Shown here: positions 26,601 to 57,854 of the stretch, piece after piece
Layout: every line of letters starts with the position of its first letter
How positions within the stretch are numbered: the stretch's first letter is position 1
Assembly: GCA_017469925.1 (NCBI GenBank)
Contig: JAFUFK010000016.1
Coordinates: forward strand, 404,160 to 468,159
Origin: Bacteroidaceae bacterium
GTDB taxonomy: Bacteria > Bacteroidota > Bacteroidia > Bacteroidales > Bacteroidaceae
Reading direction: 5' to 3'
Length of the DNA: 64,000 nt
Position numbers and translations under genes: made by a program
Notes under the pieces: generated by a model
The model's input: only the letters and a program-made list of their open reading frames with translations
Databases searched by the model: none
Told to the model about the DNA's origin: nothing

Positions 26601-29600
26601 GCCTTGACTACACCACGGAAGGCTTGAAGAACAAGCGCGAGATAGCCCTGACGGTGCCGACGGTGGAGAGTTGGAACGAGGGCGATGAGGTACACTTCGG
26701 CGATGCGGACAATGGGACTTCCGTGGCGTGGATTCGCTTTGGTGAAACTACCGATGCAGACGGAAATCGCGTGCTGGTCATCGACGAGATACAGAGCAAG
26801 CGGCATCAGGAAGGAAGGGAGAAAGGGTATAGGACCGCTGAGGCTATTGCGGAGGAAGAAAGGCTTGGTGAAGAGGTCAACAAGGCCCAGGAGGCTTACG
26901 ATGCCTACACCCGTAAGATGAGTGAGAAGTACGATGGCGCGTATGAGGACATCTTCCCCGACATGGCCGAAGCGGAACGACAGGAGGCAGACCGACTGGA
27001 GCAGGCGGTGTATGCCGCAAGCGAGCGTTTACAGAATCATGATGTATCTGACATTCCCGACGCTCCGTTTGAAAAGAACTGGCACGAACTGGCGATGAAG
27101 CGTATGTTGCGCTATGCCGCCGAGAACGGCTACGACAAGATTGCTTGGACTACTGGCACCCATCAAGCGCGAAGATATGATATAGGCAAAGACGTAGAGA
27201 AAATAATCTCTTATGATTACCCATCCGTTAAAGATGCCGACGGGCGCAAGAGCAAGAAGGTGGAAATACGTCTTCGCAATGGTGACACGATGACTATGCG
27301 TGTCGGTGAAGATGGCCGTGTAATAGAAGGACGTAGTGAGACAGAGGGGAAAATGCTGTCTGATGTTGTCGGGAAAGACTTGGCCAAGCGTATTATGGAA
27401 GGCGAGGGCAAGGACGGAAGCATCTTTGATGCCGACCGCGACTTGCCTGCCAAGGTAATAGACGGTGATGGCCTGCGCATTGGTGCCGAGGGCATGAAGG
27501 GCTTCTACGATGAGATACTTCCCCGGTTCATGAACAAGTACGGCAAGAAGTGGGGTGTGAAGGTTGGAGAAGTGGAATTAGAAAAGCCATTTGATGCCGA
27601 CCATGATGCACCGTTAAAATGGCATTCTGTTGATGTCAATCCCGAGATGAAGGAGAGCGTGATGCAGGGCCAGACGATGTTCCGTCCAGGTGGTTTGAAG
27701 TTCGGAGACAAAGCATCCTTTGATATACATCTTGCGCAAAACCCCGACGGAGGGCCACTTGTATATAAGACAGATGTACTCCCAGATGTTTACCCAAGCC
27801 CTTACAATGCTTTTGCAGCCATTCGCAATCACTACCCTGAATACCTTGTACAATGGGATGAGCAAACCGATAAGGTCACCCTGACGTCATGGAGAAGCAT
27901 ATTGGGTAGCCAGGAGCAGAAACCAGCAAGCAAGACGCAACAGCGCAAGGAAGATGCTTATGCTAAACGTGTAAAACGGAATATGCGTAAGAAGGCCGAG
28001 GATATGGTCGAGAAGTTGCATATATCCGACGATGTGCTGATAGTTGACAACGCATCAGAGTTGCCTGATGAAGTCTTTGAGGGCATGAGTAGTCGCACCA
28101 AAAAGAAGACAAAGCGCAGCAAGGGATGGTTTGACCCAACTACAGGTAAGATAATCCTTATCATCGGCAACAATAGAAGTGAAAAGGATATCCTTGAAAC
28201 AGTTATGCACGAAGGCGTAGCTCATTACGGACTGCGCAAGTTGTTTGGCGAACACTTCGACACGTTCCTCGATGAAGTGCACAAACATGCAGACAAGGAG
28301 GTTAAGGACCGCATTAACCAACTTGCTTTCGAGAAGTACGACTTTGACCTGCGTGCTGCTACAGAGGAATATCTTGCAAGCCTTGCAGAAATGACGGACT
28401 TTGAGCGTCCCCAAATGCAAAGCTGGTGGAAGAGGGTGCGTGAGTTGTTTGACCAGATGCTTGTTCGGCTTGGACTTGGCAAATCTCTCACACGCTCATT
28501 AGACGACAATGACTTGCGCTATATCCTGTGGCGTAGTTACCACAATCTGGAGTTGCAACAGAACGGGTTGTTTGGTGTGGCAGATGATATCGCCATGCAA
28601 CAGGAACTAAAAGTACGGGACTTTGCTGTTAAGGCTACGCCGATTATAAAGAATGACTTCCGCATTAGCAATGGTGAAGAAATTCCATTCGGCATGAAAA
28701 TTAAGATTCTTGACGCATACAACGTTGTGAAGGATAAACATCCAGGCGTTGTTGCCCTTATACGCACACCCTATGGATATGTTGCCATAAACAAAGATGC
28801 AGCCGCTTTGCGTAAGGCGTTTAATCTTCCTGATGGACCATATATCTTGTTTGACGAAGAAGTTCTGGATAAAGCGCTTTCAAAGCTTATATCGAGAGGC
28901 AATAGGGTAGCCCTAACAGAAGTAGCCACCAATGAAGCTGTTGCAGAAAAGGTGAGCGAGCCTAATGTCCGATTCAGAGAAGATGGTGTAAGAGAGGAAG
29001 TAGAGAAGTTTACATCTAAGTACAACAGCAAACCGATATCGTTCTTTAGCCTATCGATGAGCGACGAGGAGTTGATTGATGCGCTTGATATTCCCAAAGA
29101 ATATCGTAAAGATGAGGACATAAAGGAACTCCGTAAATATTTTGAAACAGAAAAACCTGCCGCATTATTTGATAGGAAAACAGAAAAAATATATATCTTT
29201 GCAGACGAGTTAAAGCCTGAAAAGACAGAAGAAACTTTGTTCCATGAGAACCTGCATGCTTCTCTCCACGAAATGTATGAAGATGGTATGAGGAACATCG
29301 CTGAACGATTCTGGAATATTGCTCCTGATGAAGGTAAGGTAAAACGCTCGTTTGTAGAGAAGAAATACAAAGATGAAGATGAGAAGAAGGAAGAACTGTT
29401 CGTCTTTTGGCTTTCTCGCTCGATGCGTGACGGAGATGTTGACGACATGCTCAATATGTTTGATGACGAAGGAGACGTTATAAGAATAGAAACATTTTTA
29501 AGAGATATCGGATATGACAAAGAAAGAGAATCAGCAGAAAGAAAGCAAAAAGAGCGGAGGAATAATGGAGTACATCAAAAAGAATTGGACGGTGTTCAAA

Positions 29601-32600
29601 CCGTCGGAGGACGAGGAAGAAGAGAAGACGGATTCTTAAACAACAAGTCTTTCATGCTTGACGAAGGTGCAGGAGAAGCAGAAAACTACGACGCAGGTCC
29701 ACTAACCTTTGAGGAAAGCATAACAAAGGCAATGCTTGAACTTTCAAGAAGAAACAAGCAGAACCTTCAAAACAGAATGGATGCCATTGCTGCGATTAAG
29801 GGCAATCTCCAGCAGTTGAGAATGGCTATGGCTCGTCAGCGTGAGTATGACAGGAGCACGGTTAATGATATTGTGCGTCTTGTAAGAATGCTGATGGACA
29901 CTGGCTTTGTTAGCGACATGACCACCTATGAGGTGCGTCGGTTGCTTGCTATGGTAAATAGTGCCACAGGTCGTGAAGATATTTCACAACAGGCAGACAA
30001 GATTCTGGACCTGATAACATCGCATCAAATCCGTCAGTGTAAGAGCATTCTTGGCAAACAGATAAGCATACGTGCTTCAAAGGTGAACCAGAGTGGGGTA
30101 GAAGTGCAAGGCAAACTCGATGTCGAAGGTCAGCGTATGGTAAATGCGTTGAAGGAAGGCATGGGACTGTATGAGGCTACCATTGACGAGCGTATGAGTG
30201 AATGCCTTGATAAGATGGGTGATGCATCCGACGAGGTGGCACAGAAGAATGCGGCCCTGGAATACCAAGGTCTTATGCTTGCCAAACAATATCTCGAGGA
30301 TGTTAAGGCGAGCGAGCAAGAAGAGAAAGACTTGAAGCATGCTTTAAGTCAGGCTGACGAAGAACGTCGGGCTGGCAGGTTCGGCAGCTACGACCAGTAT
30401 AAAGAATATGTGCAAAGCCTGCGTGACAGCATCATGCAGAATCGCCTTGAGCGTGTGGAAGCTTATCGCAGACTATTCAACTCTATTGGCGACAACCTGC
30501 GAGACAGCGTCAAGAAAGCTTGGGAGTTTAGAGAACGAGAGACTGCAAGGGCCAATGAAATTCTTCACATGGCGAACAGCGACCTTGAAGGTATGTCTGC
30601 AAGTGAGCACAGTAGCCAGAAGTGGTGGGAGAGTGCTGTCAATTGGTCTTGGGTACGAGGACTGATGAAACCACTTGCCACATTCGACGAAATGCTCCGA
30701 TTCTTGGGTCGTAAGAGCGTGGATGGAAGAGGCTATCTTTGGAATCGTTTCTTTAGAGACGGATTTGTAAAGGCTAACGATACGGCTTGGAGAAACCTGA
30801 AGAAGGACCACGAAGAGTTGGATGCCAAGGTACGTGACTTGTTCAATGGTGGTACATATATCGACAAGAACGGAAAGACACAGAAGATGCCAAAGATAAA
30901 CCGTTGGAGCGACCTCTTCTCCCTTGAACGCGACATGCCTACCGCAGATGTTGGTATATGGGATGCTGGAGAAACGAAGACATACACCTTGACTGCCGGC
31001 AACCTTCTGTACATCTATATGGTAAACAAGATGAGCGATGGTCGCATGAAGCTTCGCAGGATGGGTATATCGGAAGCAGATGTTGAAGCCATAAAGCAGA
31101 GCCTTGACCCACGTCTTATCGAACTTGCCGACTGGATGCAGAACGATTATCTTGTAGGCAAGCGCAACACCTATAACGAAGTACACGAGCGTCTGTTTGG
31201 TGCTCCTATGGCTTCCATAGACAACTACTTCCCATTAAAGGTGAATAAGCGCAGCCGTATGCAGGAGATTGACCCTACAGCATATACGGGCGACGGGGAT
31301 GCAAAGCCATCAGACATTACGGGAGCCATCATCAAGCGCAAGAAGAACACTACGCCATTGGATATCACCAATGCCGATGCCTTTGACGTAATGCTTGAAC
31401 ACTTGGAGCAGATGGAGCATTGGGCCGCTTTTGCAGAACTTAGCCATGACCTGAAGACGCTGCTTTCATACAAGACATTCCGCAATCGTTTGGAGAATAT
31501 GAGCAGTGTACGTTTCGGTAGTGGTGATGTGCTTTGGAACAACTTCAAGACAGCATGCGCAATTGCTTGCGGTGTGTATCGCCCGAAGATAGACAAGGAC
31601 AGCATAGACACCTCTCTTGTGAACGTCGCAAAGGGTGTTACCGCTGCCAAGATATCCCTGAGATTGTTCACTGCATTCAAGCAGTTGCTTTCTTATCCTG
31701 CATACCTGAGTGAAGCAAACATCATTGAACTTGCCAAAACAACCAATCCTGTAGGTGCAGCAAAGGCATGGAATTGGGCAATAGAGAATCTTCCAGGGTT
31801 CGCAGAGCGTTGGCAGAGTAGGCAGGCAGGTGACAGCAGACTGATGAAGACCGATAGCGATTGGGGACTTTGGCGTGAAGGCCTTGTAAAAGAGGCAGCA
31901 AGAATAGGCATGTCACCCAATGCCTTTGTTGATGCTCTCACGGTTGTAATGGGTGCAAAAGCCATCTATGAAACAAAGTTGAAGCAGTATAAGAAGGACG
32001 GGCATCCTGCCGACGTTGCCAAAGAGCGTGCATTGCTTGATGCTTCCATTGCATATAACGAAACTCAACAGAGTAGCGAAAGCGGATATTTAAGTGCCAT
32101 GCAGCTTGATAGGACTTTGGCAAGTGTAGCACTCACCGTATTCCGAAATAGTTCGATGGGCTATCAACGCAGGCTGTTCCGTTCACTTGACAACCTGAAG
32201 GAAAAGATGAAGCCCGGGTATCGTGAGGAAACCATTGAGTATATGAGGAAGCAAATGGAACGCGACGGACTCACCCCTGAGCAGGCAGGGCGTGCTGCAA
32301 AGCGTGCATATCGCAGGAGTTGGGTGGAAGATGTCGTAAACACACTCATATTCGGTTACGGCATTCAGTTTGCATGGAATCTGGGTAGTTATATCCCATA
32401 CCTGTTGTTTGGTGACGATGATGACAAGAAGAAGGAGTTCCTTGACGATGCAGCAATACACGCCTTTGCAGGAGGAGTTGAGGGCCTCAGCGGGGGAAGC
32501 ATAATGAGTGAACTTGCCAATATGGGTATGCAGATTGCTATGGCCGACGATGACAGCGAGAAAAAGTCGTTGAAGCAACAGCTTATGAACTATGACTTCA

Positions 32601-33460
32601 ACACGCTTCCTGTTCTCAGCGATATGCAGACAATGCTGCGGCACTTCGGAAGCGATGAGGTTCAGGGATGGAACGACATTGTGAACCTACTTATACAAAG
32701 TGGAATCGGTGTTAATCCTCAAACTATAACCGATGCAGCGCTTGCCATAGAGGATGCCGTACAAGGCGACCTTGGAATGGGGAAGGAAATCGGAATGTTC
32801 CTGATGCGTCTTGCGGCTGTTCCGCAAAGCCAGTTGGACGAGTTGTATCTCGATGAAGTTGGCTTGATTGCAAAGGATGCCAAAGAACTGAGTGTTGAAG
32901 AACTTGCACAGCGATATGCTATTTACAAGCGAAAGCGTGGAGCATACTCGCTTCGTTGGGCATACGATGATGAAGAGAAGGCAGAACTTGAAGAAAAGTA
33001 TGTAAAGCGATTCAACAAGCGTTTGCAAGAACGTATCGCAGGCCTCAGCGAGGATGGCAAAAAAGAAGCATTTGAAGATGCAGATGACGACGACGATATT
33101 GTATTAAAGAACATTGTTGCCAAAGAAATAGCAAAGTCAATGGAACTTCAGGATTATTTTGCAAAGAGCAATCCCACACCTTGGCAGGAAGAGTATCAGC
33201 GAGAGCGTAACTTCTATGACCACATGGACGACTTGACACTTGACGTTGCAGCCAAAGCGGCCAAAGATGCAAACGACAGTCCTCGCATAAAGCAAATCGC
33301 CAATATGAAGAAGAATCTAAACAATATCCGTAAGGCTCTTGTGTTAGATGTTGAAGGACGTGAGGAGAATATGGAGAGGTTGCGCAACCTTCGCGGCAAA
33401 TATCTTGAAGCTTTGGATAATCAACCTTCTGGAGCTGTAGTCGTCGAGATAGAAGAGTAA
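17603..33460 (+). CDS. Giant (5285-residue) polyvalent phage protein, probably ejected with the genome
   Basis: At roughly 600 kDa it fills a quarter of the window. Residues 1-60 hold two copies of a short helical unit (DRKWLFDKM, DRDWYYNKS). Then come a coiled coil (250-320), glycine-rich hydrophobic helices (390-640), a barnase/RelE/colicin-E5-type nuclease-like segment (1005-1121; GDIDLWYGDDKAGLKKI, NWLLTAYE), an inorganic-pyrophosphatase-like domain (1596-1748), a DYGDISLIAPS module (1940-2390), an LPD3-like segment (2466-2580; FYDHSLTEI), an ADP-ribosyltransferase-like domain (2633-2829), a large conserved polyvalent module (2837-3360), an HExxxH peptidase-like region (3536-3541) and an HExxH one (3881-3885). 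From 4018 it is helical, with a hydrophobic stretch at 4911-4937. Such arrays are known as polyvalent proteins delivered into the host. Individual activities are inferred from motifs. Confidence 0.82.
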   Translation: MYNDEDRKWLFDKMKSAGVNTGSYDDFTQSLSNKEDRDWYYNKSKELKLDIGSPEDFESMMVEPIAQPVIAGGPSGNVFTESELKKMENGGNPKAKSSLKPTKGAVSKPSAQMPGYKQPVADFMKLDTRDLNTWKNPMGKVRDVRQQQQFSTQKPGEDKTVTDVVKAVKGDEAAAKRVGRQKAMQQIRDRIDYARVSGGKELQGIIPNSEILAPTVLRDEEGNPILGEDGEPLTGVTGDQARVNAQKHEHAKYEEAEYNSLSSQMERAQQELADIQDQIDALKTPYGVKEGEANRMRDLVRTREQIERRIAGLEIAQAGGERGFWSGLLGTGLDLSTWAFGLDKLGDASRMLSISEKMKRGEDITTEEQALLDATLKNQEVQQRLDDDSNFMFRAGRMTAEMFPFMLSIGLTGGMSGVAGIGVNAGRQAALRYAENFGADALRNRIVANMLKGTGALVGDLMAGYAMGNTVGIGNTMADVLNRRIGRLTYAPDGSITFEGGKSWAEALYQGETAQALEYGTEMMGEHIIDPALKMIARQSKNLGFMRGLSRIFTGEGGPQMIKTTYEWLNKMGVQGLPSEGLEEEVNMLLGIGLHADDTDEQVAQFLDKDTHKEIWGGMGLSIGFLHGFGAGMQGLSKTYNTANYYRYKRKAGQASRRAVALLGKDVWAPLQERIDNAPNEEMGKVYADVLNDASMNPRDKEAVLDYMVKLTEMRGYNLGRWNASQEAPQPSVREEEQIGEQLAESNSQGYDATEPEDMQDIQNRMEILREELGDELLVANLDNDPVGTLASIEDNDTRNKALQYTNARAAYNGLLQRIGDDIESNVRVAHEVVESNVDKHTNQIRPAILKHSQRPVYIVDDTNSYDNDSSIIVKDAETGKLEFVSLNDIASIGQPLDPEQEKQRVETDIRNQIAQQEVDKVNGVLTMSIGDVYDLIDQQGNPHQVQILADNGDGTVQAVVDGKQNEAFPKQVIQDMADLKNRARAQEQYSAIASQPTEEEIQPIGKSIFGNLYDQFRGRAKDAVSFLLNRKEGNAIAALRHKDVGDIDLWYGDDKAGLKKIAEKHPEVLNDLQGIIDRMHVVRASENRVILESGTHRAVISKDWYGKKADNWLLTAYEKKGTSGGSIDIVPEPEGKQNGTAPLQDSFSGDKVTENTGNEQNISKGNAMPMVGEGENAEPNFLAVTPERGHQYIYNEAGLDQEEAGQFIEANKKAADNALKKALNSKPNMGTSLSKYNKAKAEWQERVNAAQSTADYWNSVAEVEAELQQSRDEEAQRRLWSTPEGRAQALSDVTSKGPKAKAELARRIYGGYFNSDLDVPGTIEELVAMLLPYGSLNWEGYDRGTHHVRGLQEELGSNHRRGLDRNADSNAFNSYLAKKGEGMSVEELAEQMYSSPENMQDGEHPRWEDSEIRSAILDVLMNAGKSTDIRDYVLNSRINAAEEALRAEEEAAEAAKAEYAEAMHMTPDEVDLWQDYLAEEIPSLVAAYDEIYPIFAEDIIENINNDGEQQSSRSEGLDSQSAEGGNQVLDNGSQEEVREPARSAEVVAEDNEQEGPVGTAENVAVGESAPADVLPEGERVNLQEQIANAEAEVDTNPTEAQKDAGNYKKGHVNIDGFNFTIENPKGSERSGVDADGKAWSQTMNNTYGYIRGSEGVDGDHIDMFLSDDPSQGDVYVIDQVKKDGSFDEHKVMYGFGSEQEARDAYLSNYEEGWQGLGNITHVSKGEFKKWVESSHRKTKPFAEYKSVTVTMWKTKKSTLTDANRSETTPISDLGELSADKVTENLSNEQEETEENANLSDEQRKEIAKTVKGFEQETQEDFIAFERRVNDMSDAELLAYIEAQGLDETKADHPSVYDAYDARHGKEYVDYFDMYADGLHDSTRDRVEEILAQAEKEWEKGGFSSEMRTQLSAQIDACREWLDREEGQSGKTILFREGNDKTLAGFHNISSDKLKKALKQGGLANPSMAVVNTEDRAHTDYGDISLIAPSRLINARTGMNVGTYAGDAWTPTYPSVTLFFTPKGEKHRQAIAKENANGDKELENHLLHALSDYIDGNGDRLHFLFLAQKGLNPEIAQERTTHSHEEYEAVKKIFGEGTSTLPSDFTKEQSDALLALMMSEYEKKVREDSQKISDEAKREAAVEAMLDIRRKSLTDDNGKLWFAKGDNYVHGVWKDEQRRKNPKTDWYPSGNRRYVPNTLENVSRLMNKEQATNAYDNGGLSATRARLLQRFTSLAQIRKNKDLLNSDEEVEKRSKEMSDELFDIIHQISDMQKIDDNPFSNLDYAERRLQEAMTMRNPIRYLNKEYGYDIAEDSELASQIMNFIEEVKALPVKYFETKFNRPVYLNEFAVAVVPDDLDADMLNQLRQSGLDVRTYKSGDIEDRKRVNKEAVEGRSDILFREGEPDYSTMSEPDLDKEYMEALNVVEKPQRIEKLRKSEPVEITGEEYRGQYELNRDSAKKYIKEHLRGNYQIDDTGETILLAKDGAQKVTSHSMGNEAHLKSIAAIPQLLKNAIYITELPNEKGNGKYDMYRYYVCGLRIGGEDYTAKIVIGVDANGKKFYDHSLTEIEKGKLIDEVGALSTTLPSDNESSSISVSKDTKLLSILQTNPEEIARAEEKMRSVLDEMARRRGYTSSSDYQGSLAFNGAAPSKNAYFETKEERKKAFANGDFEGDYSLGDFVDNGLDNHDLEWQIDNPIPASGRDKATLASLNNLRSAVKGKKRTIKMYRAVDASVKEDSFRNGDWVTPSREYAEQHIGLQDWKKGRIIEQEVSIDDVWWNGDDINEWGYDDGKGYAYKNTANNRKLTDLVTRDDAGNVIPPSKRFDERSQDVRFREDEEAPIFISNARHAVEGIKQEKAKPEQWLAMIEKNGGMKAGEDKWLGLSDWLKGQGKKTLTKQEVLDYIRENQIEVQEVHYSEDAETNAFLEYRKEYKQYYDEAVENGKEDPQDVAWERMIEEHGEDFGLGFYALGDELQWDNDSDYTQWEYEQGGIDKPINSTRLDYTTEGLKNKREIALTVPTVESWNEGDEVHFGDADNGTSVAWIRFGETTDADGNRVLVIDEIQSKRHQEGREKGYRTAEAIAEEERLGEEVNKAQEAYDAYTRKMSEKYDGAYEDIFPDMAEAERQEADRLEQAVYAASERLQNHDVSDIPDAPFEKNWHELAMKRMLRYAAENGYDKIAWTTGTHQARRYDIGKDVEKIISYDYPSVKDADGRKSKKVEIRLRNGDTMTMRVGEDGRVIEGRSETEGKMLSDVVGKDLAKRIMEGEGKDGSIFDADRDLPAKVIDGDGLRIGAEGMKGFYDEILPRFMNKYGKKWGVKVGEVELEKPFDADHDAPLKWHSVDVNPEMKESVMQGQTMFRPGGLKFGDKASFDIHLAQNPDGGPLVYKTDVLPDVYPSPYNAFAAIRNHYPEYLVQWDEQTDKVTLTSWRSILGSQEQKPASKTQQRKEDAYAKRVKRNMRKKAEDMVEKLHISDDVLIVDNASELPDEVFEGMSSRTKKKTKRSKGWFDPTTGKIILIIGNNRSEKDILETVMHEGVAHYGLRKLFGEHFDTFLDEVHKHADKEVKDRINQLAFEKYDFDLRAATEEYLASLAEMTDFERPQMQSWWKRVRELFDQMLVRLGLGKSLTRSLDDNDLRYILWRSYHNLELQQNGLFGVADDIAMQQELKVRDFAVKATPIIKNDFRISNGEEIPFGMKIKILDAYNVVKDKHPGVVALIRTPYGYVAINKDAAALRKAFNLPDGPYILFDEEVLDKALSKLISRGNRVALTEVATNEAVAEKVSEPNVRFREDGVREEVEKFTSKYNSKPISFFSLSMSDEELIDALDIPKEYRKDEDIKELRKYFETEKPAALFDRKTEKIYIFADELKPEKTEETLFHENLHASLHEMYEDGMRNIAERFWNIAPDEGKVKRSFVEKKYKDEDEKKEELFVFWLSRSMRDGDVDDMLNMFDDEGDVIRIETFLRDIGYDKERESAERKQKERRNNGVHQKELDGVQTVGGRGRREDGFLNNKSFMLDEGAGEAENYDAGPLTFEESITKAMLELSRRNKQNLQNRMDAIAAIKGNLQQLRMAMARQREYDRSTVNDIVRLVRMLMDTGFVSDMTTYEVRRLLAMVNSATGREDISQQADKILDLITSHQIRQCKSILGKQISIRASKVNQSGVEVQGKLDVEGQRMVNALKEGMGLYEATIDERMSECLDKMGDASDEVAQKNAALEYQGLMLAKQYLEDVKASEQEEKDLKHALSQADEERRAGRFGSYDQYKEYVQSLRDSIMQNRLERVEAYRRLFNSIGDNLRDSVKKAWEFRERETARANEILHMANSDLEGMSASEHSSQKWWESAVNWSWVRGLMKPLATFDEMLRFLGRKSVDGRGYLWNRFFRDGFVKANDTAWRNLKKDHEELDAKVRDLFNGGTYIDKNGKTQKMPKINRWSDLFSLERDMPTADVGIWDAGETKTYTLTAGNLLYIYMVNKMSDGRMKLRRMGISEADVEAIKQSLDPRLIELADWMQNDYLVGKRNTYNEVHERLFGAPMASIDNYFPLKVNKRSRMQEIDPTAYTGDGDAKPSDITGAIIKRKKNTTPLDITNADAFDVMLEHLEQMEHWAAFAELSHDLKTLLSYKTFRNRLENMSSVRFGSGDVLWNNFKTACAIACGVYRPKIDKDSIDTSLVNVAKGVTAAKISLRLFTAFKQLLSYPAYLSEANIIELAKTTNPVGAAKAWNWAIENLPGFAERWQSRQAGDSRLMKTDSDWGLWREGLVKEAARIGMSPNAFVDALTVVMGAKAIYETKLKQYKKDGHPADVAKERALLDASIAYNETQQSSESGYLSAMQLDRTLASVALTVFRNSSMGYQRRLFRSLDNLKEKMKPGYREETIEYMRKQMERDGLTPEQAGRAAKRAYRRSWVEDVVNTLIFGYGIQFAWNLGSYIPYLLFGDDDDKKKEFLDDAAIHAFAGGVEGLSGGSIMSELANMGMQIAMADDDSEKKSLKQQLMNYDFNTLPVLSDMQTMLRHFGSDEVQGWNDIVNLLIQSGIGVNPQTITDAALAIEDAVQGDLGMGKEIGMFLMRLAAVPQSQLDELYLDEVGLIAKDAKELSVEELAQRYAIYKRKRGAYSLRWAYDDEEKAELEEKYVKRFNKRLQERIAGLSEDGKKEAFEDADDDDDIVLKNIVAKEIAKSMELQDYFAKSNPTPWQEEYQRERNFYDHMDDLTLDVAAKAAKDANDSPRIKQIANMKKNLNNIRKALVLDVEGREENMERLRNLRGKYLEALDNQPSGAVVVEIEE
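22119..22346 (+). CDS. Small gene nested out of frame in the giant gene
   Basis: This 75-residue frame starts with two ATGs at 22119 and is shifted relative to the giant frame (residues 1506-1582 there). It reads as a normal helical protein: AWIASLPKEEIKSWITEAKK, then LPEVQKLSQKI, then LQLANLLLLTYYLKENE. The overlapping giant frame is low-complexity linker rich in Glu, Ser, Gly and Asn (for example SQSAEGGNQVLDNGSQEE). The contrast suggests that the nested frame is the older coding frame. Whether it is still translated is unknown, and it has no clear ribosome-binding site. Confidence 0.5.
   Translation: MMENNRVAEAKAWIASLPKEEIKSWITEAKKKYGNLPEVQKLSQKITSRKDLSEQQKTLQLANLLLLTYYLKENE
29514..29639 (+). 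CDS. Second small gene nested out of frame in the giant gene
   Basis: This 41-residue frame lies in the same shifted phase as the one at 22119. It reads MTKKENQQKESKKSGG, then MEYIKKNWTVFKPS and an acidic tail. The giant frame over it is again low-complexity (KERESAERKQKERRNNG). Fifteen nt after its stop an in-phase Met of the giant (residue 4018, MLDEGAGEA) begins the C-terminal helical module. This looks like a former gene boundary. Confidence 0.45.
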   Translation: MTKKENQQKESKKSGGIMEYIKKNWTVFKPSEDEEEEKTDS

Positions 33461-33484: not shown

Positions 33485-33508
33485 GGGGAGGCTCAACGGC
33501 CTCCCTTC
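33485..33508. terminator. Bidirectional hairpin between convergent phage operons
   Basis: GGGAGGC (33486-33492) and GCCTCCC (33499-33505) form a 7-bp stem followed by TTCTT. It ends the giant-protein transcript. From the other side it overlaps the last codons of the small leftward gene at 33493. Confidence 0.7.
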
Positions 33509-33606
33509 TTGATTCTTGTAGGTTTACCATGAACGGTGTATGTCGCCAATGGATTGTGCGAAAGTGTTGCTATGCCTTCAAGGCCGTTCTTCCCTATCTG
33601 TTCCAT
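33493..33606 (-). CDS. Tiny hypothetical protein at the end of the terminase operon
   Basis: The frame has 37 residues from an ATG at 33606 (MEQIGKNGLEG), ending in HGKPTRIKKGGR. It overlaps the stop of the preceding gene by 13 nt, as in tight phage operons, and its last codons form the terminator stem. An upstream Met in the same frame exists at 33711 but lies deep inside the neighbouring gene. No function is recognised. The support is position and plausible composition only. Confidence 0.45.
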   Translation of the reverse strand: MEQIGKNGLEGIATLSHNPLATYTVHGKPTRIKKGGR

Positions 33607-34052
33607 GGGGTCCGTATCTTTGCAATGATTTTTGCTTTCAGCAGTTTCCGGCCAAGGCGGCGCTCTTCCTTGCGTTTCCGTGAGAGTTCCTTCCGTACCT
33701 GGTCGCACCACTTGAAGTAGTGTTTGCGCTTAATCGCTATGATTTCAGGAGTAATCATGCCACTTTCGTTTCGGTAAGGTGTAAAATAGAACGATTCCTG
33801 AATGAGGTGGATGACATGAGACTGTTTCCCTACATAGCCCTTGCGCTTGAAATACTTCAGGTCGTGCTTTGTCATTACGACGAGTTTGCCGTCGAGGTTT
33901 GGCATGACATAATAGCGTTCACAGTGCTTGGCGTGTGCTTCATCGGCTTTCTTGATGGCCTCATCGAGTGTCAGTCTCGCTTTGAATTTTGCAATTGGAT
34001 TCATAAGATTTACATGTGTCAGTCTCGCTTTGAATTTTGCAATTGGATTCAT
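33594..34052 (-). CDS. Basic hypothetical phage protein with duplicated N-terminus
   Basis: The protein has 152 residues if the outer start at 34052 is used, or 136 from the inner start at 34004. A 48-bp tandem duplication copied the start codon and the first codons, so the protein begins MNPIAKFKARLT-HVNL-MNPIAKFKARLT. The body is soluble and basic, with MPNLDGKLVVMTKHDLKYFK in the middle and a very basic helix at the end (KELSRKRKEERRLGRKLLKA). It starts 23 nt behind the terminase gene on the same strand. I do not recognise a family; a packaging or head role is only suggested by position. Confidence 0.65.
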   Translation of the reverse strand: MNPIAKFKARLTHVNLMNPIAKFKARLTLDEAIKKADEAHAKHCERYYVMPNLDGKLVVMTKHDLKYFKRKGYVGKQSHVIHLIQESFYFTPYRNESGMITPEIIAIKRKHYFKWCDQVRKELSRKRKEERRLGRKLLKAKIIAKIRTPWNR

Positions 34053-34063
34053 AAGATTTACAT
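33968..34063. repeat. 48-bp exact tandem duplication spanning a start codon
   Basis: The segment 33968-34015 is repeated immediately at 34016-34063 without a mismatch. Because 48 is divisible by three, it adds 16 residues in frame to the leftward gene and gives it two equivalent starts. Confidence 0.95.
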
Positions 34064-34075
34064 TAAAGTTAATAA

Positions 34076-36250
34076 TTATATGATAGCCGCAGTAACGGTT
34101 TTTTTCTTTCTCTTGGCCCTGCGCTGTGCCAGAGTGGTGCGCTTGACAATAGTGGGCAAGGGCATTTCTTTGAGACATACATACATGCCGATGGCGCGTG
34201 TCATCAGCTTGTCGTCATGATACCCGGACATGGCCTCATATCCTCCGTTATCCGTCTCAATGTATGTGGCATATTCGTCAAGACATCCTTCGTCACGCTC
34301 AATGTATAGTTGCTCGCGGACAACCTTTTTCAAGTTGTGGATGATAACTTTCTTTGTCAGCGTATTGGTATGGAAGCCGTACTTACGTGGCGCACCTTCG
34401 CGTATATCCTCGGCGCTCTGTTTCCTTGCGTACAGGTTTTCATATACTTCGCGTATCAGGTTTAGGATGTATTCCGCATCGCCCTTTGTGTTGTTGGTTT
34501 CAAGGGTGTTGCTCTCGATAACCAGTTTTGCTTCATTATAGTATTGTGCTATTTGCGTTGCCTTCCATGCCAGCAGGTCCATATCGATGTGACCGTACCA
34601 TTGTGCCACTATGGTAGGTGGAAGTCCGTCAATCATATACAGACGGTCTATGACGAGGATAACAGCAAAGTCGGCCTTAGCAGTATGGCCCTTGCAGACA
34701 TCGACGACAACCAGGTATCGGTCTGTGACCTCTTCATCCTCGTCTTTCTCCACATCCTGCCATATCCAAAGCCTTCCGTCTTTCTCCTTCTTGAAGCGAA
34801 GGTTCTGCAAGGCATCTGCTCCTTCGTCGTCTCTTCCGTATATTTCGCCGGTGAACTTGGGAGGCCTGCAGGTCCCGCGCATCTTATTGATATCGGCAGC
34901 ATCAAACACTTTGCGTCCCGAGTAGGTGAAAGCCTCAATGTCATCCGACGGATATTCCGAAGCCATGGAAGCGTGTGAGGTGTACTTCGTACGTTCGGCA
35001 ATATACCAGTTGATGGCCTCCAGCGTTGCACCGTCTTGCCAGAGTTTCCACAGATATGAGCCAGGTTCTGCACGGTCGGATTCCGTAAAGTCAACATTCC
35101 TGTTCCGATAAAGCCATAGGGCAAACTGCACAATTGGAGGCAATGGGCTATCTGCGTCAAGCGTTTCGGTGATGGGCAGGCTGTACTGGTCAATCTCAAA
35201 CCATGCAATAAATAGTGCCTCGAATTGTGATTTCCCTTTCTTGGCAGCAAGATATTCCTTGTGAAAAAGATTACCTGTTCCGTTTGCCGTTGACTCATAG
35301 GCAATCAAGGTCAATGGTTTATATAAGACTCCAGACAATGCGCTGTTGACAACTTTCTCAGGCGTAATCTTATCCGTATCTTTCCAAAGGGCCACCTCTG
35401 ACAGATGCACAAGGCTGTAGCCACCACCACGGCATGACCTTGGGTTCTCTGCCGTACCAATCTTAATCTTACACTTGCGCTGTGGCACGCGGTGGATAAG
35501 TCCACTCTTACCTACGCCGACATACTTTGCTTCATTGTCGGAATACTCTTCATCGGCATCGTGGAGAAATTCAAGAGGATATTCATCAATCATCCTCTTG
35601 AACATATCATTGATTTCGTCAGAGGTTACGGTTTGGTGCGCAATGATAAGGGAATTAATGCCGATTTTGTGGACAAGCTGTAGCCATGCCATGTATAACT
35701 GTATGCAAGTTGAGCCTCCCCATTGACGCGCCTTAAGCAGGACAATACGAATGGGCTTTCCAGAAACTCGCATCTTCTCCAGTTTATTTACCAACTTTCG
35801 CTGTGCCCTGTTAAGCCTGAACAGAATATCGTCACCTCCTTCTTTCGGAGATATGTAAGCGAGGCTTGCTGCCCAGAAAGCAAAGTCGTGCCTGATACGG
35901 ACGCGCATGTACTCCCGGATGATTTTCTGCTTTTCTTCTTCCGAATAGTATTGGTCAACAAATTCATCGTCATAGAACGCCTTGATGGAACCAGCTTTGA
36001 CAAGTTTCTTTATCAAAGGCACTTTCATCATCGTGTCAGGAAGGTAATGCTCCTTAAATGGAAAGTCTTTTATGGTAACGTGCGTGCGCTGTCCTATAGA
36101 ACCCTCGCCCGTAATGGGGTTGAACTTGGCCAATATGACATTGTTGCGCGCCTCGTTTTCTGCAAGAATTGCTCTTACAGCCTCAGCATCATCGCCCAAC
36201 AGTCGCTCATGGACTTTGGTTATCTTTGTCATTGGTATCACTTTAGCCAT
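34076..36250 (-). CDS. Terminase large subunit
   Basis: This 724-residue packaging motor has an ATPase part with a Walker A-type loop KARQWGGST (173-181), a Walker B strand ending in an acidic residue (SLVHLSEVALW) and the coupling segment YESTANGTG. The C-terminal nuclease has its acidic residues in VVVDVCKG, VIESNTLE and YHDDKLMTRAIG. It cuts and pumps concatemeric phage DNA into the prohead through the portal. Unusually, it lies on the strand opposite to the head genes and far from the portal (51861-53813). It overlaps the rhomboid gene upstream by 13 nt. Confidence 0.95.
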   Translation of the reverse strand: MAKVIPMTKITKVHERLLGDDAEAVRAILAENEARNNVILAKFNPITGEGSIGQRTHVTIKDFPFKEHYLPDTMMKVPLIKKLVKAGSIKAFYDDEFVDQYYSEEEKQKIIREYMRVRIRHDFAFWAASLAYISPKEGGDDILFRLNRAQRKLVNKLEKMRVSGKPIRIVLLKARQWGGSTCIQLYMAWLQLVHKIGINSLIIAHQTVTSDEINDMFKRMIDEYPLEFLHDADEEYSDNEAKYVGVGKSGLIHRVPQRKCKIKIGTAENPRSCRGGGYSLVHLSEVALWKDTDKITPEKVVNSALSGVLYKPLTLIAYESTANGTGNLFHKEYLAAKKGKSQFEALFIAWFEIDQYSLPITETLDADSPLPPIVQFALWLYRNRNVDFTESDRAEPGSYLWKLWQDGATLEAINWYIAERTKYTSHASMASEYPSDDIEAFTYSGRKVFDAADINKMRGTCRPPKFTGEIYGRDDEGADALQNLRFKKEKDGRLWIWQDVEKDEDEEVTDRYLVVVDVCKGHTAKADFAVILVIDRLYMIDGLPPTIVAQWYGHIDMDLLAWKATQIAQYYNEAKLVIESNTLETNNTKGDAEYILNLIREVYENLYARKQSAEDIREGAPRKYGFHTNTLTKKVIIHNLKKVVREQLYIERDEGCLDEYATYIETDNGGYEAMSGYHDDKLMTRAIGMYVCLKEMPLPTIVKRTTLAQRRAKRKKKTVTAAII

Positions 36251-36753
36251 GGGGCAGGGGAGTTAAGAAAACCTACGGTAACACCTGCCACATAGCAATA
36301 AATATGAAGCAGGTTGCCAATGGCTATGTGAAACAATATAGAGCATGCATAGCCTATGGCGATAAATAGTACTATGCAAATGTGATATCTCAGCTTCTTA
36401 GCCTGCCATGATACCATGCCAAGCAGGCAAAAGCAAATGCCCGACAAACCAACGGTCGGTTGTTCGCCTATCATCGAACAAGGGCACGCGCTTGCTAAGG
36501 CATAGGCCCAAAGCAGATAAGACATAGGCACATCGAAGGTAAAGACAATGCTCAGCAGACACCAGGCGTTGAGGCCGACATGGATGAGGCTTGCATGAGC
36601 GAAGTGATAAGAAAAGCGGTGTGGCCATGAGGAATCGTTTGTTATTCCCCATGCAACCATATCCCATCCCAACAACTTGCTTAAAAGGAACATGGCCAGG
36701 ACGGCAAGGCTCAGAACAAGTGCCGCAACTTTCGTTTCCTTTCTTCGAGACAT
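36238..36753 (-). CDS. Phage-encoded rhomboid intramembrane serine protease
   Basis: This 171-residue protein has six hydrophobic segments (about 8-28, 52-72, 76-92, 100-116, 122-141, 147-163), the minimal rhomboid core. All hallmark residues are present: H53, H58 and N62 spaced as in E. coli GlpG (FAHASLIHVGLN), the catalytic serine in GLSG (S104), and the partner histidine H150 followed by G157 in the last helix (LHIYCYVAGVTVG). Rhomboids cut transmembrane segments of other proteins. The gene overlaps both neighbours (43 nt with the upstream gene, 13 nt with terminase), so it belongs to the packaging operon. The substrate is unknown; see the finding on the capsid protein leader. Confidence 0.85.
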   Translation of the reverse strand: MSRRKETKVAALVLSLAVLAMFLLSKLLGWDMVAWGITNDSSWPHRFSYHFAHASLIHVGLNAWCLLSIVFTFDVPMSYLLWAYALASACPCSMIGEQPTVGLSGICFCLLGMVSWQAKKLRYHICIVLFIAIGYACSILFHIAIGNLLHIYCYVAGVTVGFLNSPAPWLK

Positions 36754-37154
36754 TTCTTTTTTGCTTTCCAGATAAATAATCGCGCAGTGTCAGGTGTCAT
36801 GTAGAACGCTGGAGCCTCTTGCTCGACAACTATTTCTACAAGATGCGTCAGTGGAATTTTGCCGTGCAGTTTCCTCTCTTGCTCGACGCGCCTGTAGATT
36901 TCATTGTACATCGCCAGTTTGGTAGGTCGCATTGGCGGTGTCTTACCTTTTATGATAAGAGAAACGACATTCAGCGCACGCTCGGGACTTACCCAAAATC
37001 GCTTTGCCGGCATTTTTACAACTTCCCTATACACTTTGGAGATACTGATACGACCAGTTTGAGAGAGTTGGAGACTTATCTGCTCGCGATAAGCACGCAA
37101 CAAATCAAGGTTGCGCTCCTGCTCAAACTCTAACGTACTTCCTGGTCGTTTCAT
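36711..37154 (-). CDS. Putative DNA-binding protein heading the terminase operon
   Basis: The protein has 147 residues from MKRPGSTLEFEQERN at 37154. The upstream in-frame ATGs lie in the promoter. It is basic and helical, with RISISKVYREVVKMPAKRFW and the phrase PDTARLFIWKAKKKC near the end. As first gene of the operon terminase-rhomboid it may be the small terminase subunit. That would match the usual small-then-large gene order, but no family signature is visible. It overlaps the rhomboid gene by 43 nt. Confidence 0.65.
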   Translation of the reverse strand: MKRPGSTLEFEQERNLDLLRAYREQISLQLSQTGRISISKVYREVVKMPAKRFWVSPERALNVVSLIIKGKTPPMRPTKLAMYNEIYRRVEQERKLHGKIPLTHLVEIVVEQEAPAFYMTPDTARLFIWKAKKKCLEERKRKLRHLF

Positions 37155-37172
37155 CAGGTGAATTTTTTTATA

Positions 37173-37218
37173 CAAAAATACTATCAACCGTTAAAAGATA
37201 AAAGTTTCGCTTCTTAAT
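37173..37218 (-). promoter_or_regulatory. Probable leftward promoter of the terminase operon
   Basis: TATTTTTG on the minus strand (37180-37173) is preceded, with a 20-nt spacer, by ATTAAGAAGCGAAACTTT (37218-37201), which matches the 16010-16027 box at 13 of 18 positions. It is interlocked with the rightward promoter at 37190-37233 in the same geometry as at 15.98 kb, but is more degenerate. Confidence 0.5.
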
Positions 37219-37268: not shown

Positions 37269-38069
37269 ATGGCAATGATTGAAAATCAAGAGGTTAAGAG
37301 CAAACGAGATTTGCTTTCAGAACGGATTAGCGGCAAATATCCCGACAAAGATTTTTCCGACGACGAAGCTTTGTTTGGCCAAATCTCCGATGATTACGAT
37401 GATTTCGACAATAAGATTAAGGGCTATCAGGAACGCGAGAAGCAGATATTGGACATGTTCAATGCCGACGAGCGCAGCGCAATCTTCCTGAAAGACATGA
37501 AGCAGGGCAAGAGTCCCTGGACCGCTTTCATCCGTCGTTTTGGTAAGGATGGCCTCGAGGAACTTGTGAACAACGAAGAGAAGTTGCAAGAGTTTGAGGA
37601 GGCCGAAAAAGAGTTCCTGGCCAATGCCGCAAAGAGCAAGGAGATGGACGAACAGCGTGAGAAGAATATTATCGCTACGCAGGCGATGCTCGACGAGTGG
37701 GAGAAAAAGCATGACATGGAATACGGTGATGCAGACGCTATCCTTGCAGTTGCTTCGGCCATTGCCGATGACCTCTTTATGGGCGTTGTAAAAGAAGAAA
37801 CCCTCGACATGCTCCAACGGGCTATGAACTACGAGAAGGACATTGAGAACGCAGCCGCAGAAGCAGAGATTCGTGGCAAGAATGCAAAGATTGACGAGAA
37901 GTTGCGCACACGCAAGGCCAGCGACGGCACCGTAGCCCTTGACGGCAAGACAGGCAATAACATGGCTCCGAAACCTCGCAATCTTGGTGCACTTGGTCGC
38001 TATGGCGGCGAGGGTAACACCACTATCTGGGAACGTGGTAACGAGAAGCGTACACGTTACAATTCGTAA
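37269..38069 (+). CDS. Putative capsid scaffolding protein
   Basis: This 266-residue, strongly charged helical protein lies directly before the major capsid gene. Acidic helices occupy most of it (for example EKLQEFEEAEKEFLANAAKS). The final 50 residues turn basic and glycine-rich and end NTTIWERGNEKRTRYNS. Such an acidic rod with a basic C-terminal tip is the usual plan of scaffolds, whose tip binds the coat protein. The tip motif IWERGNEKR recurs in the HAD protein at 47500. No sequence family is recognised; the call rests on position and composition. Confidence 0.7.
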   Translation: MAMIENQEVKSKRDLLSERISGKYPDKDFSDDEALFGQISDDYDDFDNKIKGYQEREKQILDMFNADERSAIFLKDMKQGKSPWTAFIRRFGKDGLEELVNNEEKLQEFEEAEKEFLANAAKSKEMDEQREKNIIATQAMLDEWEKKHDMEYGDADAILAVASAIADDLFMGVVKEETLDMLQRAMNYEKDIENAAAEAEIRGKNAKIDEKLRTRKASDGTVALDGKTGNNMAPKPRNLGALGRYGGEGNTTIWERGNEKRTRYNS

Positions 38070-38104: not shown

Positions 38105-39547
38105 ATGAAGAAGACAATGAAAACGATGTTGGGCGTTCTGCTCACATTTCTCGCGCTCATTCTGGGCGCACAGTCGGGTGTCGTAATGGCAGCTGCCTCT
38201 ACTTTACCCGATGCCGGCAAGACCACTGGCGGTGAAGGAGGCCTCGAGACTCCTCCTACTGGTATCGCCACTGAGACTCAAGGCCGTCAGGAGGGCGACC
38301 CCGAGTTTTACACCAAGGACATTGATAGCCGAATCGTCAAGATTCGTCCGATGGCCACTCCTGTTGACCAGATTTCTCGTTATGCCAAGGCGCAGAAGAG
38401 TGATTCGTTCGAGGTGAAGTATTACAGTGTTGGCACACGTCCCATCAAGTGCGTGACAAACGCAGCTGTCACTGCACAGAGTAGTGGCGCAAGCCTCAAG
38501 CTTCCTGTAGATGACATCAACATGTTCACCCTCGACGATACCATTCGCGTAGTAGGCGTTAAGGCCAAATACGACTATGCCGGTAATGCCTATGATGCAG
38601 ATTCGGAGAACACACCCGACCTGGTTCTGTGTGTATGCGGTCGTGATAGTTCGACAAATGAGCCTATTGTATATGCGGTTAATGGTAACAAACAGAACGG
38701 TACTGGCCCCACTATCTGGGTTCCTGCCATCCCCAATGGCTCTACCCTTGTTCGTATGGGTAAGGCTTGCGGTGAGCTTGACGTGCAGACAGGCCGATTC
38801 AACAACATTCCTACTGCCGAGATTCAGTACTGCCAGAACTTCATGATTCAGATTGAGCAGTCGAAGTTTGACGAGATTGCCGCCAAGGAGGTTGACTGGA
38901 CATTCAGCGACATTGAGGAGGATGGAATCTACGACATGCGTCTTGCTCAGGAGAACACTTATCTGTGGGGCGACAAGCACGTTATCTATCATCCCACCAA
39001 GGACGGAATGGCAACATGGTTCACTGGTGGTATCTGGTACATGGCCGGCAAGGACATCGAAGTCGGCGAATGGGATGCTACTAAGAAATGTGCCGTCATC
39101 AGCGACGACAACCTTGTTGACATCACTAAGGACCTCTTCGTCGGTACGGGCATCGGCAACAAGCGTAAGATTCTGCTTTGCGGTAGCGACATGCTTTCGG
39201 CCTTCTCCAAGATTAAGAGTGAGAAGTTCCGCCTAAAGGACACCGTAGAAGTTTGGAACCTGAAGTTCAAGTCTTGGGACACTGACTTTGGAGAGGTGCT
39301 GACCATCCACCACGAGTTGTTCGACATGAACGGCATGGCAGATTGTGGCTTAGCTCTCGACCCCGAATACCTGTCTAAGAAGACTCATGTTTCTTGGGGC
39401 CGCAACGTGCTCGACTTGAAGAAGTCTGGTATTCGCAACACTAACGCCGTCGTATTGCAGGAGGTTAGCTGTCTCTATCTTCGCTACGCAAAGGCTCATG
39501 CCCGTATGCGTCTTGCTCAGGCTCCGGCTGCAACCAGCGGTTCTTAA
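38105..39547 (+). CDS. Major capsid protein with signal-peptide-like N-terminus
   Basis: The protein has 480 residues. From about residue 60 it has the composition and position of an HK97-fold coat protein. It follows the scaffold gene and precedes head-completion genes, and its gene begins 35 nt after the scaffold stop. Residues 1-30 are odd for a capsid: lysines, a hydrophobic run (MLGVLLTFLALILGAQSG, 8-25) and VVMAA, just like a Sec signal or membrane anchor, then a Gly/Pro/Thr-rich linker. An alternative is that the leader is a removable delta-like segment. No internal Met gives a convincing shorter start. Confidence 0.78.
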   Translation: MKKTMKTMLGVLLTFLALILGAQSGVVMAAASTLPDAGKTTGGEGGLETPPTGIATETQGRQEGDPEFYTKDIDSRIVKIRPMATPVDQISRYAKAQKSDSFEVKYYSVGTRPIKCVTNAAVTAQSSGASLKLPVDDINMFTLDDTIRVVGVKAKYDYAGNAYDADSENTPDLVLCVCGRDSSTNEPIVYAVNGNKQNGTGPTIWVPAIPNGSTLVRMGKACGELDVQTGRFNNIPTAEIQYCQNFMIQIEQSKFDEIAAKEVDWTFSDIEEDGIYDMRLAQENTYLWGDKHVIYHPTKDGMATWFTGGIWYMAGKDIEVGEWDATKKCAVISDDNLVDITKDLFVGTGIGNKRKILLCGSDMLSAFSKIKSEKFRLKDTVEVWNLKFKSWDTDFGEVLTIHHELFDMNGMADCGLALDPEYLSKKTHVSWGRNVLDLKKSGIRNTNAVVLQEVSCLYLRYAKAHARMRLAQAPAATSGS

Positions 39548-40007: not shown

Positions 40008-40691
40008 ATGGAATACAAAGTAGCCGATATCGTCAGGGAAATCAATATTGCGCTCGACAAGAACATGTCGAGTGAGGCCCTTAGCAACTTGGGGGATGTT
40101 GATACCCTTACGCTTGATGAAATCATTGCCAGCAAAATCGAAGACGCAGCTCGCACCGTTACGCTAAATGCTCCATACACTCTGTTGGATGGAGGCAAGG
40201 CTTTCGGAGATGTGGTCGGTTGGGATATGCAGGCAGGCTATGGCCCGGGACGCATTGTCCTTCCCGATGATTTCCTTCGGTTGCTTGTGTTCCAGATGAG
40301 TGACTGGTCTCGCCCTGTTACCGAACCAATTACGGAGGACGATGCCAGATATGCCCTACAGCGCAGCCGATTCCCCGGTGTGCGCGGATGCCCACAATCT
40401 CCCGTCGTGGCATTGGCGAAACAACCTGTGGGGCTTGTGCTCGAATTTTACTCCTGCACACAAGGAGAAAACGTATATGTTAAGATGGCCCGTTATGTGC
40501 CAATACCCAAGAAGTTCATCTACGAAGGCGAAGCGCGCATTGACCTTTGTGAGAAACTGCTGCGTCCTATAATCTACTATGCCGCCTATCTTGTTGCTAT
40601 AAGCATTGACAACGCAACTCAGGCCGTATCGTTGCGCAGGCAGAGTTATGAACTTATGGGAATGACGGATGGGTCGTCAACGGAAGGGTGA
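40008..40691 (+). CDS. Putative head-tail adaptor protein
   Basis: The protein has 227 residues from the ATG at 40008, 5 nt after the previous gene's stop. It is mixed alpha/beta with PGRIVLPDDFLRLLVFQMSD and SRFPGVRGCPQSPVVAL in the centre and a helical end (YYAAYLVAISIDNATQAVSL). Size and place between capsid and tail genes fit an adaptor bound below the portal. The last ten bases, including the stop codon, are also the first bases of the tRNA-Ser gene. Confidence 0.6.
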   Translation: MEYKVADIVREINIALDKNMSSEALSNLGDVDTLTLDEIIASKIEDAARTVTLNAPYTLLDGGKAFGDVVGWDMQAGYGPGRIVLPDDFLRLLVFQMSDWSRPVTEPITEDDARYALQRSRFPGVRGCPQSPVVALAKQPVGLVLEFYSCTQGENVYVKMARYVPIPKKFIYEGEARIDLCEKLLRPIIYYAAYLVAISIDNATQAVSLRRQSYELMGMTDGSSTEG

Positions 40692-40769
40692 CCGAGAGGC
40701 CTATGGTGGCTCCCTGCTAAGGAGTTTTACGCCAAAAGCGTAACGGGGGTTCGAATCCCTCTCCTTCCG
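40682..40769 (+). tRNA. tRNA-Ser (anticodon GCT), phage-borne
   Basis: The 88-nt tRNA folds completely. The acceptor stem is GGAAGGG/TCCTTCC with one G-U pair, and the D arm is closed by ACC/GGT. The anticodon arm is GCTCC-CTGCTAA-GGAGT, with anticodon GCT reading AGC and AGT. There is a long class II variable arm (ACGC/GCGT stem) and the T arm GGGGG-TTCGAAT-CCCTC. Discriminator G is correct for serine. CCA is not encoded. It overlaps the end of the upstream coding region by 10 nt and sits inside the rightward structural operon, so it must be cut from the mRNA. Confidence 0.93.
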
Positions 40770-40788
40770 CAAAGAAATAAGAATAGCA

Positions 40789-57445: not shown

Positions 57446-57854
57446 GATAGGTGGTTATCTCGCGTATGAAGTCGTCGAGTGAGCGGCAGATGACGTACTT
57501 GTATCCGTCCTGCTCGATGCGCCGTTGCCAATCGCGCTGTGTGTCGGCCTGACGGCCTGTGCGTGTCTTCATTTCTATGAGCAATGCACCATAGTGGTTG
57601 TTGCTCTTTAGGAGAATGAGGTCGGCGACTCCAGCCAGCACTCCCTCTGCCTTCATCTTTGCACCCGTCACCAAATCGCGGCGACCGCCGTTGGGTACGG
57701 CAAATAGATTGTGGCGCAGGGTAGGGTACTGATATCGGAACCATCGGACGCAGGCACATTGTATGCGGTGTTCCTCGTCGGAGGGACGCTTGCGTGGCTG
57801 TTCGGCATTGGTTCGTGCAAGCAACTCCTGGAATCTCTTGGAGAATTTAGCCAT
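57429..57854 (-). CDS. VRR-NUC domain nuclease
   Basis: This 141-residue protein of the PD-(D/E)XK superfamily opens the domain with EHRIQCACVRWFRYQYP. It continues with FAVPNGGRRD and carries the catalytic D in GVLAGVADLILL and E-x-K in LIEMKTRTGRQ. Stand-alone VRR-NUC proteins of phages are thought to act on branched DNA in recombination or packaging. The neighbours SNF2 helicase, RecT and RecE-like nuclease fit. Confidence 0.92.
   Translation of the reverse strand: MAKFSKRFQELLARTNAEQPRKRPSDEEHRIQCACVRWFRYQYPTLRHNLFAVPNGGRRDLVTGAKMKAEGVLAGVADLILLKSNNHYGALLIEMKTRTGRQADTQRDWQRRIEQDGYKYVICRSLDDFIREITTYLDSSN

Follow-up and report, generated by a model that had tools for sequence, protein, structure and literature searches.

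A rhomboid protease gene between the terminase genes of a Bacteroidaceae phage tracks a hydrophobic N-terminus on the major capsid protein

The window analysed here is a stretch of 64,000 nucleotides (nt) from contig JAFUFK010000016.1 of a Bacteroidaceae bacterium. It contains the packaging and head region of a phage of gut bacteria, in which a rhomboid protease gene lies between a small-terminase-like gene and the gene for the large terminase subunit, with the major capsid protein (MCP) encoded nearby on the other strand. The rhomboid is unusual in its place and ordinary as a protein family; what is new is that it tracks a hydrophobic, anchor-like N-terminus of the MCP. The genes and features concerned are:

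33594..34052, minus strand: gene X (phrog_22658), soluble, co-occurring with the rhomboid
34076..36250, minus strand: terminase large subunit (TerL; phrog_24361, phrog_5989)
36238..36753, minus strand: rhomboid protease, 171 amino acids, six-transmembrane (TM) fold, dyad S104/H150, with H53, H58 and N62
36711..37187, minus strand: small-terminase-like gene (terS; phrog_27246, of unknown function by name, terS by position)
37269..38069, plus strand: scaffold-like gene (phrog_22323), divergent from terS, its role assigned from gene order
38105..39547, plus strand: MCP of the SU10_MCP type (phrog_26635)
38126..38197, plus strand: MCP residues 8-31, hydrophobic and anchor- or signal-like, ending in GAQSGVVMAAA, the proposed rhomboid substrate region

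The open reading frame (ORF) at 36238-36753 is a genuine rhomboid. It matches the Pfam family Rhomboid (PF01694, MEROPS S54) over residues 45-164 with 25.3 bits, above the curated cut-off of 22.6, and the residues H53, H58, N62, G102, S104, G105, H150 and G157 could all be located. An earlier note on this DNA had described a complete rhomboid with most of these residues (H53, H58, N62, S104 in a GLSG motif, H150 and G157), and each of them stands where it had been placed. The only phmmer match is the GlpG of H. influenzae (2nr9; E 0.0077). This alignment is gapless through TM6, includes the GLSG, and sets H150 opposite the catalytic histidine of GlpG. A dead site, with Tyr replacing the TM6 His as obtained by aligning the downstream glycines, was rejected on the gapless alignment and the conservation of H150 in 47 of 47 rows of our conservation set (47 distinct sequences, the window and 46 relatives). 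Loss of the dyad, the mark of rhomboid pseudoproteases such as Derlin and iRhom, was seen in none of the 47 rows, and the score against the rhombosortase equivalog (TIGR03902) was 19.6 bits, below the cut-off of 84.

An AlphaFold2 (AF2) model built from 40 family rows reached a pLDDT of 91.3 and a pTM of 0.86. Its alignment was drawn from 46 rhomboid proteins, leaving out L116 (X letters), L093 (odd start) and L096 (cut), the near-copies L047 and L050, and L004 and L013. The model has eight helices, six at the places of TM1-TM6 and two short ones in loop 1, and its third and fourth TM helices are just 12-13 residues long. In a Foldseek search against the PDB all 18 matches with E <= 0.001 were GlpG (TM-score 0.63-0.71, best E 9e-5), with 16-20% identity in the alignments. 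The comparison with GlpG that the earlier note had suggested thus came out in its favour, the predicted fold being GlpG-like. With GlpG (E. coli, H. influenzae; S54) the window rhomboid shares the six-helix core, the GxSx motif, the TM6 His and the H-x4-H-x3-N of TM2, whereas it differs in being phage-borne, in having no cytosolic domain, in the LH and H-x-x-C of TM6 and in its place between terS and TerL. The N-terminus, loop 4 and C-terminus are basic and loops 1-3 slightly acidic, which would put both termini in the cytosol, so that the active site should face outward as that of GlpG does.

S104, H150, H58, N62 and G102 are invariant in all 47 rows, and H53 is found in 46. A review of rhomboids (PMC12615303) lists as motifs WR or xR in L1, a conserved A or G just ahead of the catalytic His in active rhomboids and, around the serine of active members, GxSx. 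The first is present in its xR form, with R46 in 42 of 47 rows, and GxSG is relaxed to GxSA, GxSC or GxSV in 23. The residue before the TM6 His is L in the window and L (25), V (12), I (8), S (1) or A (1) across the rows; the A/G motif is therefore wanting in 46 of 47, which counts against activity and against the reading proposed below. Three residues after the His the window has C153 (H-x-x-C), and the rows have C 29, S 8, G 6, A 3 and T 1, always a small residue; G at this position is the GlpG type. These departures would suit a rhomboid that is a decayed or inactive passenger, but we consider this extremely improbable. The mean pairwise divergence among 39 rows is 63% for the rhomboid, compared with 38% for TerL and 57% for terS, and five residues kept in every row at 63% divergence are the picture expected of an active enzyme. 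Furthermore, GxSx is the form that the same review gives for the serine motif of active rhomboids (PMC12615303). A or G before the His is taken as a common motif rather than one that defines the family, since both the profile and the fold agree with a rhomboid.

The overlap with the terminase gene claimed in the earlier note amounts to 13 nt with TerL, and a further 43 nt are shared with the terS-like ORF; overlap and common strand suggest that the rhomboid belongs to a packaging operon. A TerL scan of viral_contigs, of which the best 80 of 567 relatives were kept so that the sample leans to close kin, was combined with the window, three GenBank phages and 46 further loci, giving 130 TerL loci. 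The rhomboid was found in 62 of these, with terS upstream of it in 61; the contig of the remaining one (L096) begins at the rhomboid. Among 46 distinct relatives the rhomboid and terS overlap by 37-55 nt, always 1 modulo 3, in 44, the others being L093, where there is no overlap, and L096 without terS. When viral contigs were scanned with an alignment of the rhomboids, 55 loci came up, and the synteny that the earlier note had thought worth surveying was borne out: the order terS-rhomboid-TerL, on one strand, holds in 51 of 51 new loci, many of which are contigs of the TerL sample met again. A single-protein scan of viral_contigs gave no matches. When 128 loci were classed, 61 had the rhomboid, 48 had terS upstream of TerL and no rhomboid, 11 had neither a rhomboid nor a recognisable terS, and 8 were left unjudged. 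In the 48 rhomboid-less loci with terS, this gene lies within 60 nt of TerL in 47 and 176 nt off in L082. About half of the TerL sample (best 80 of 567) is without the rhomboid, and such shares are not population frequencies.

Merging near-copies at 97% left 94 representatives, with 8 further loci lacking a rhomboid state, and the TerL tree excludes L126 (with rhomboid) and L132 (terS, no rhomboid), in which TerL was too short. Rhomboid distances correlate with those of TerL (Mantel r 0.73) and terS (r 0.74) over 39 rows, 0 of 2000 permutations reaching either value, and descent is therefore largely vertical. The presence of the rhomboid changes at least 13 times on the best TerL tree, or at least 8 times when weakly supported branches are disregarded and rows of undetermined state are scored as rhomboid-less, a pattern that we read as probable repeated loss.

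The MCP of the window starts with MKKTMKTMLGVLLTFLALILGAQSGVVMAAASTLPDAG. Among the 77 representatives of the TerL sample with a readable MCP start, a hydrophobic N-terminal segment is present in 34 of 35 with the rhomboid and in 0 of 42 without it. The two groups are separate in peak hydropathy, the lowest value with the rhomboid being 1.59 (apart from L106) and the highest without it 1.34. Independent pairs taken on well-supported branches of the TerL phylogeny agreed in 6.7 of 7 cases, with none opposite (median p 0.016). Fisher's test without such correction gives p 4e-21 and overstates the coupling. Wrong start codons hiding anchors in rhomboid-less MCPs were rejected as an explanation, as in the 42 representatives no 15-residue stretch exceeds 1.40 when the frame is read from the preceding stop codon up to residue 45, and as a control residues 61-105 of the 35 MCPs from rhomboid-bearing phages peak at <= 0.68. 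A second set, which overlaps the first, came from the scans with the rhomboid and gene X, and there the segment was present in 38 of 38 distinct MCPs. The union of distinct MCP N-termini from these two overlapping samples holds 57 with both segment and rhomboid, 46 with neither, 1 with the rhomboid only and 0 with the segment only. The rhomboid is thus strongly coupled to the hydrophobic N-terminus of the MCP. The earlier note had argued that an intramembrane protease in a structural operon implies a membrane-embedded substrate, and a neighbouring MCP that is hydrophobic at its N-terminus in rhomboid-bearing phages and not in others makes such a substrate likely.

A scan with two patterns from the MCP core (NMFTLDD and RMGKACG), which touch neither the N-terminus nor the rhomboid, found 76 loci. 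The rhomboid state could be read in 72 (4 were too short), with 71 carrying the rhomboid and 1 not. The script scored the segment in 70 of the 71; the remaining one, L315, shows it behind an upstream Met, the start having been picked too early. The sole rhomboid-less locus, L335, is also the sole readable one in which the hydrophobic core is lost, with NVLYGIEGRRSQMK in its place. In 48 of the 76 loci the MCPs were from the earlier sets and 28 were new, and all 25 readable ones among the new had both rhomboid and segment. In these samples no anchored MCP was seen without a rhomboid, and a rhomboid without an anchored MCP was seen once (L106); this asymmetry is expected if the anchor needs the protease.

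Our preferred reading, which we put at a probability of roughly 0.56, is that an active GlpG-like rhomboid, made together with the terminase, cuts the hydrophobic N-terminal segment of the phage's own MCP. For the wider picture, that the head of a tailed phage is made of an MCP anchored in the membrane and that the rhomboid is the maturation protease freeing the shell from the membrane, we would put the odds slightly below even. We infer rhomboid activity, insertion and cleavage of the MCP, their timing and a role of gene X in the following form: the hydrophobic segment would first attach the MCP to the inner membrane, the rhomboid would cut at the small-residue end of this segment, the clipping would free or mature the shell protein or prohead before packaging, and gene X may be a soluble partner. 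In descriptions of tailed phages, the capsid is matured by soluble proteases within the prohead. If the reading is true, intramembrane proteolysis would serve the assembly of some tailed-phage heads at the inner membrane or their release from it, and a bacterial-type rhomboid would be at hand together with its natural substrate; the search for substrates of bacterial rhomboids is called challenging in PMC7232013.

Differences in the segment by codon position (0.22/0.13/0.41) indicate that it is translated coding sequence. Its end is rich in small residues, with G21 in 49, A22 in 51, G25 in 51, A29 in 54 and A31 in 51 of the 57 rows. An internal start of the MCP (MA of MAxAS) was rejected as the reason for the conserved Met, M28 being present in just 45 of 57. 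Rhomboid substrates have helix-breaking small residues in the TM, and the MCP segment resembles them. The near-invariant A29 and A31 would also suit removal of the segment by host signal peptidase I, leaving the rhomboid only to clear the left-over signal peptide or to act like a chaperone; non-proteolytic relatives of rhomboids exist (PMC12615303). We regard this as very unlikely. Signal peptidase I substrates of Bacteroidetes are expected to have Q at +1 after the signal peptide, according to the rule quoted in PMC10367356, and because the residue after AxA is Q in 0 of 57 rows, ordinary secretion of the MCP is unlikely. Nor would the invariant catalytic S and H be expected of a chaperone.

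The S78 and S49 prohead proteases share the role proposed here for the rhomboid, maturation of the MCP N-terminus, and are soluble enzymes. S78 (PF04586) was found in 0 of 23 contigs (11 with and 12 without the rhomboid, some perhaps fragments), other protease families not being part of this search apart from S49 (PF01343), which gave nothing over its cut-off in the same contigs and one sub-threshold match of 11.9 bits. The 'Nixviridae' prophages of P. gingivalis, likewise Bacteroidota phages, have MCPs with signal peptides (PMC10367356). Their authors ascribe the cleavage to phage prohead proteases, and the word 'rhomboid' does not occur in that text.

The same phyletic data would be expected if the hydrophobic N-terminus worked within the capsid in its own right and the rhomboid served quality control, destroying or rescuing only those MCP copies that wrongly enter the membrane. 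GlpG and Rhom7 of Shigella cleave orphan membrane proteins or subunits, as reported in PMC7232013, and with most MCP staying cytosolic the problem of topology raised below is avoided. We nevertheless hold this to be unlikely. The segment is kept in very divergent MCPs (L223-L227, 145-501 bits; the second set reaches down to 145-312 bits), and a hydrophobic core retained in otherwise strongly diverged proteins argues for a dedicated membrane step. Quality control also leaves the tight position between terS and TerL unexplained.

Several points weigh against cleavage of the MCP by the rhomboid. The anchor is a hydropathy call (Kyte-Doolittle, a 15-residue stretch at >= 1.5), and the MCP-core scan was seeded with 11 anchored MCPs, all from rhomboid-bearing phages, and samples the anchored-type lineage. 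L335 and L065 are the same contig, and the double loss of rhomboid and hydrophobic core counts as one case. L106 (2363-5995) carries the rhomboid and gene X beside an unanchored MCP that is placed inside the unanchored clade. When the MCP tree is built with residues 1-70 removed, the anchored MCPs fall into a single clade (support 89, not starred) that also includes L065, and the coupling therefore rests on few independent swaps of the MCP lineage with gain or loss of the rhomboid against the TerL background. As to the cut itself, the AxA end is also similar to sites cut by signal peptidase I. Lysines open the MCP N-terminus, and by the positive-inside rule such an end stays in the cytoplasm, so that the capsid domain would come to lie on the other side of the membrane; most known rhomboid substrates are oriented opposite to what this predicts for the MCP. 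This leaves a puzzle of topology: the segment may insert in reverse or in the form of a loop, or insertion may concern only part of the MCP copies. As a separate observation, L106 possibly reflects a recent swap of the MCP.

The single clade of anchored MCPs, the rhomboid distances that follow TerL and terS, and the rhomboid kept in L106 without an anchored MCP would all be consistent with linkage only. In that case rhomboid, gene X and anchored MCP would be inherited as one structural module, and the substrate would be another membrane protein of phage or host, with roles such as a change of the host envelope, superinfection exclusion or lysis timing. We find this account improbable. The rhomboid and the MCP type switch together in those 6.7 of 7 pairs while the adjoining TerL stays, and L065, without a rhomboid, has lost just the anchor of an otherwise anchored-type MCP. 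In addition, no cluster with predicted TM besides the rhomboid is confined to rhomboid-bearing phages in a 13-phage gene-content table, which compares 7 with 6 phages by crude greedy gene calling, keeps clusters in >= 3 phages and gives leads only.

Gene X encodes 104-165 amino acids just after TerL, with no TM by hydropathy, and its family phrog_22658 is of unknown function. It is found in 35 of 38 representatives with the rhomboid and in 3 of 47 without it (6.2 of 8 independent pairs concordant, none opposite, median p 0.03), and the three rhomboid-less bearers (L018, L020, L028) form one clade with MCPs of the unanchored type. A scan seeded with gene X of rhomboid-bearing phages gave 38 new loci, 37 of them with a TerL match before X, and all 31 that reach far enough upstream had a rhomboid match, which in L260 is partial and lies next to a stretch of N. 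A scan with one alignment of gene X (A5), which was too variable, found nothing. Part of the coupling of rhomboid and MCP could come from physical proximity, though TerL stands between the rhomboid and X. In phage BF1-TP2 gene X is on the other strand, > 2 kb from TerL, yet still present. As a rhomboid substrate gene X was rejected for its want of a TM; no PDB entry matches its predicted structure (pLDDT 94.9) at an E below 0.71, and we keep it as a partner with no assigned function. An exact 48-bp tandem duplication at the start of the gene (33968-34063) looks recent and is the reason for two candidate starts, 34052 or 34004. A further small gene lies nearby:

33493..33711, minus strand: gene Y, a small ORF with GIATLSHNPLA

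A profile of gene Y matches in 21 of 38 representatives with the rhomboid and 0 of 47 without it. Neither gene Y nor the 'YajC-like' gp5 of phage BS-TP4 has a predicted TM, and both were rejected as membrane substrates.

The earlier note had also called a virus-encoded rhomboid unusual. This stands for its place; virus-borne rhomboids as such are not new, BFVD holding other viral ones. The Stenotrophomonas phages DLP5 and DLP3 encode a 'rhomboid membrane protein' (175 amino acids in DLP3), which is named a moron gene in DLP5 and, in the part of the gene table covered for DLP3, has hypothetical proteins and no terminase as neighbours (PMC5834331, PMC7326821). The same gene in the same place occurs in the Bacteroides phages BS-TP4 (PQ571277), BKO1-TP3 (PQ571269) and BF1-TP2 (PQ571263), where it overlaps terS by 40, 40 and 43 nt, compared with 43 in the window. 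These phages have named hosts, and for them there is deposited annotation only, derived from structure alignment. Among the matches listed from open PMC full text, no title or beginning of an abstract tied a phage rhomboid to terminase or capsid processing. GenBank names at two loci (L004:11923-14548, L003:12431-14527) are misleading, the BKO1-TP3 rhomboid being called a glycoside hydrolase and TerL of both phages a 'tail spike protein'.

In the divergent phage L224 (3920-8384) the TerL frame begins about 1.4 kb past the end of the rhomboid, and something may be inserted there. L113 and L114 are phage in metagenome-assembled genomes labelled Staphylococcus sp. and Clostridia bacterium, for which binning contamination seems likelier than a host jump. 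Elsewhere in the window, a giant ORF of 5285 amino acids (17603-33460) belongs to a cluster that spans 3 phages with and 3 without the rhomboid, and a VRR-NUC nuclease (57429-57854) to one found in 6 of 7 with and 0 of 6 without it, a small and crude comparison. A tRNA-Ser (gct) lies at 40682-40770 within the prophage structural gene region, and a 27-bp tandem repeat of 9.5 copies (63744-64000) stands at the very end of the contig, which is possibly why the assembly stops there.

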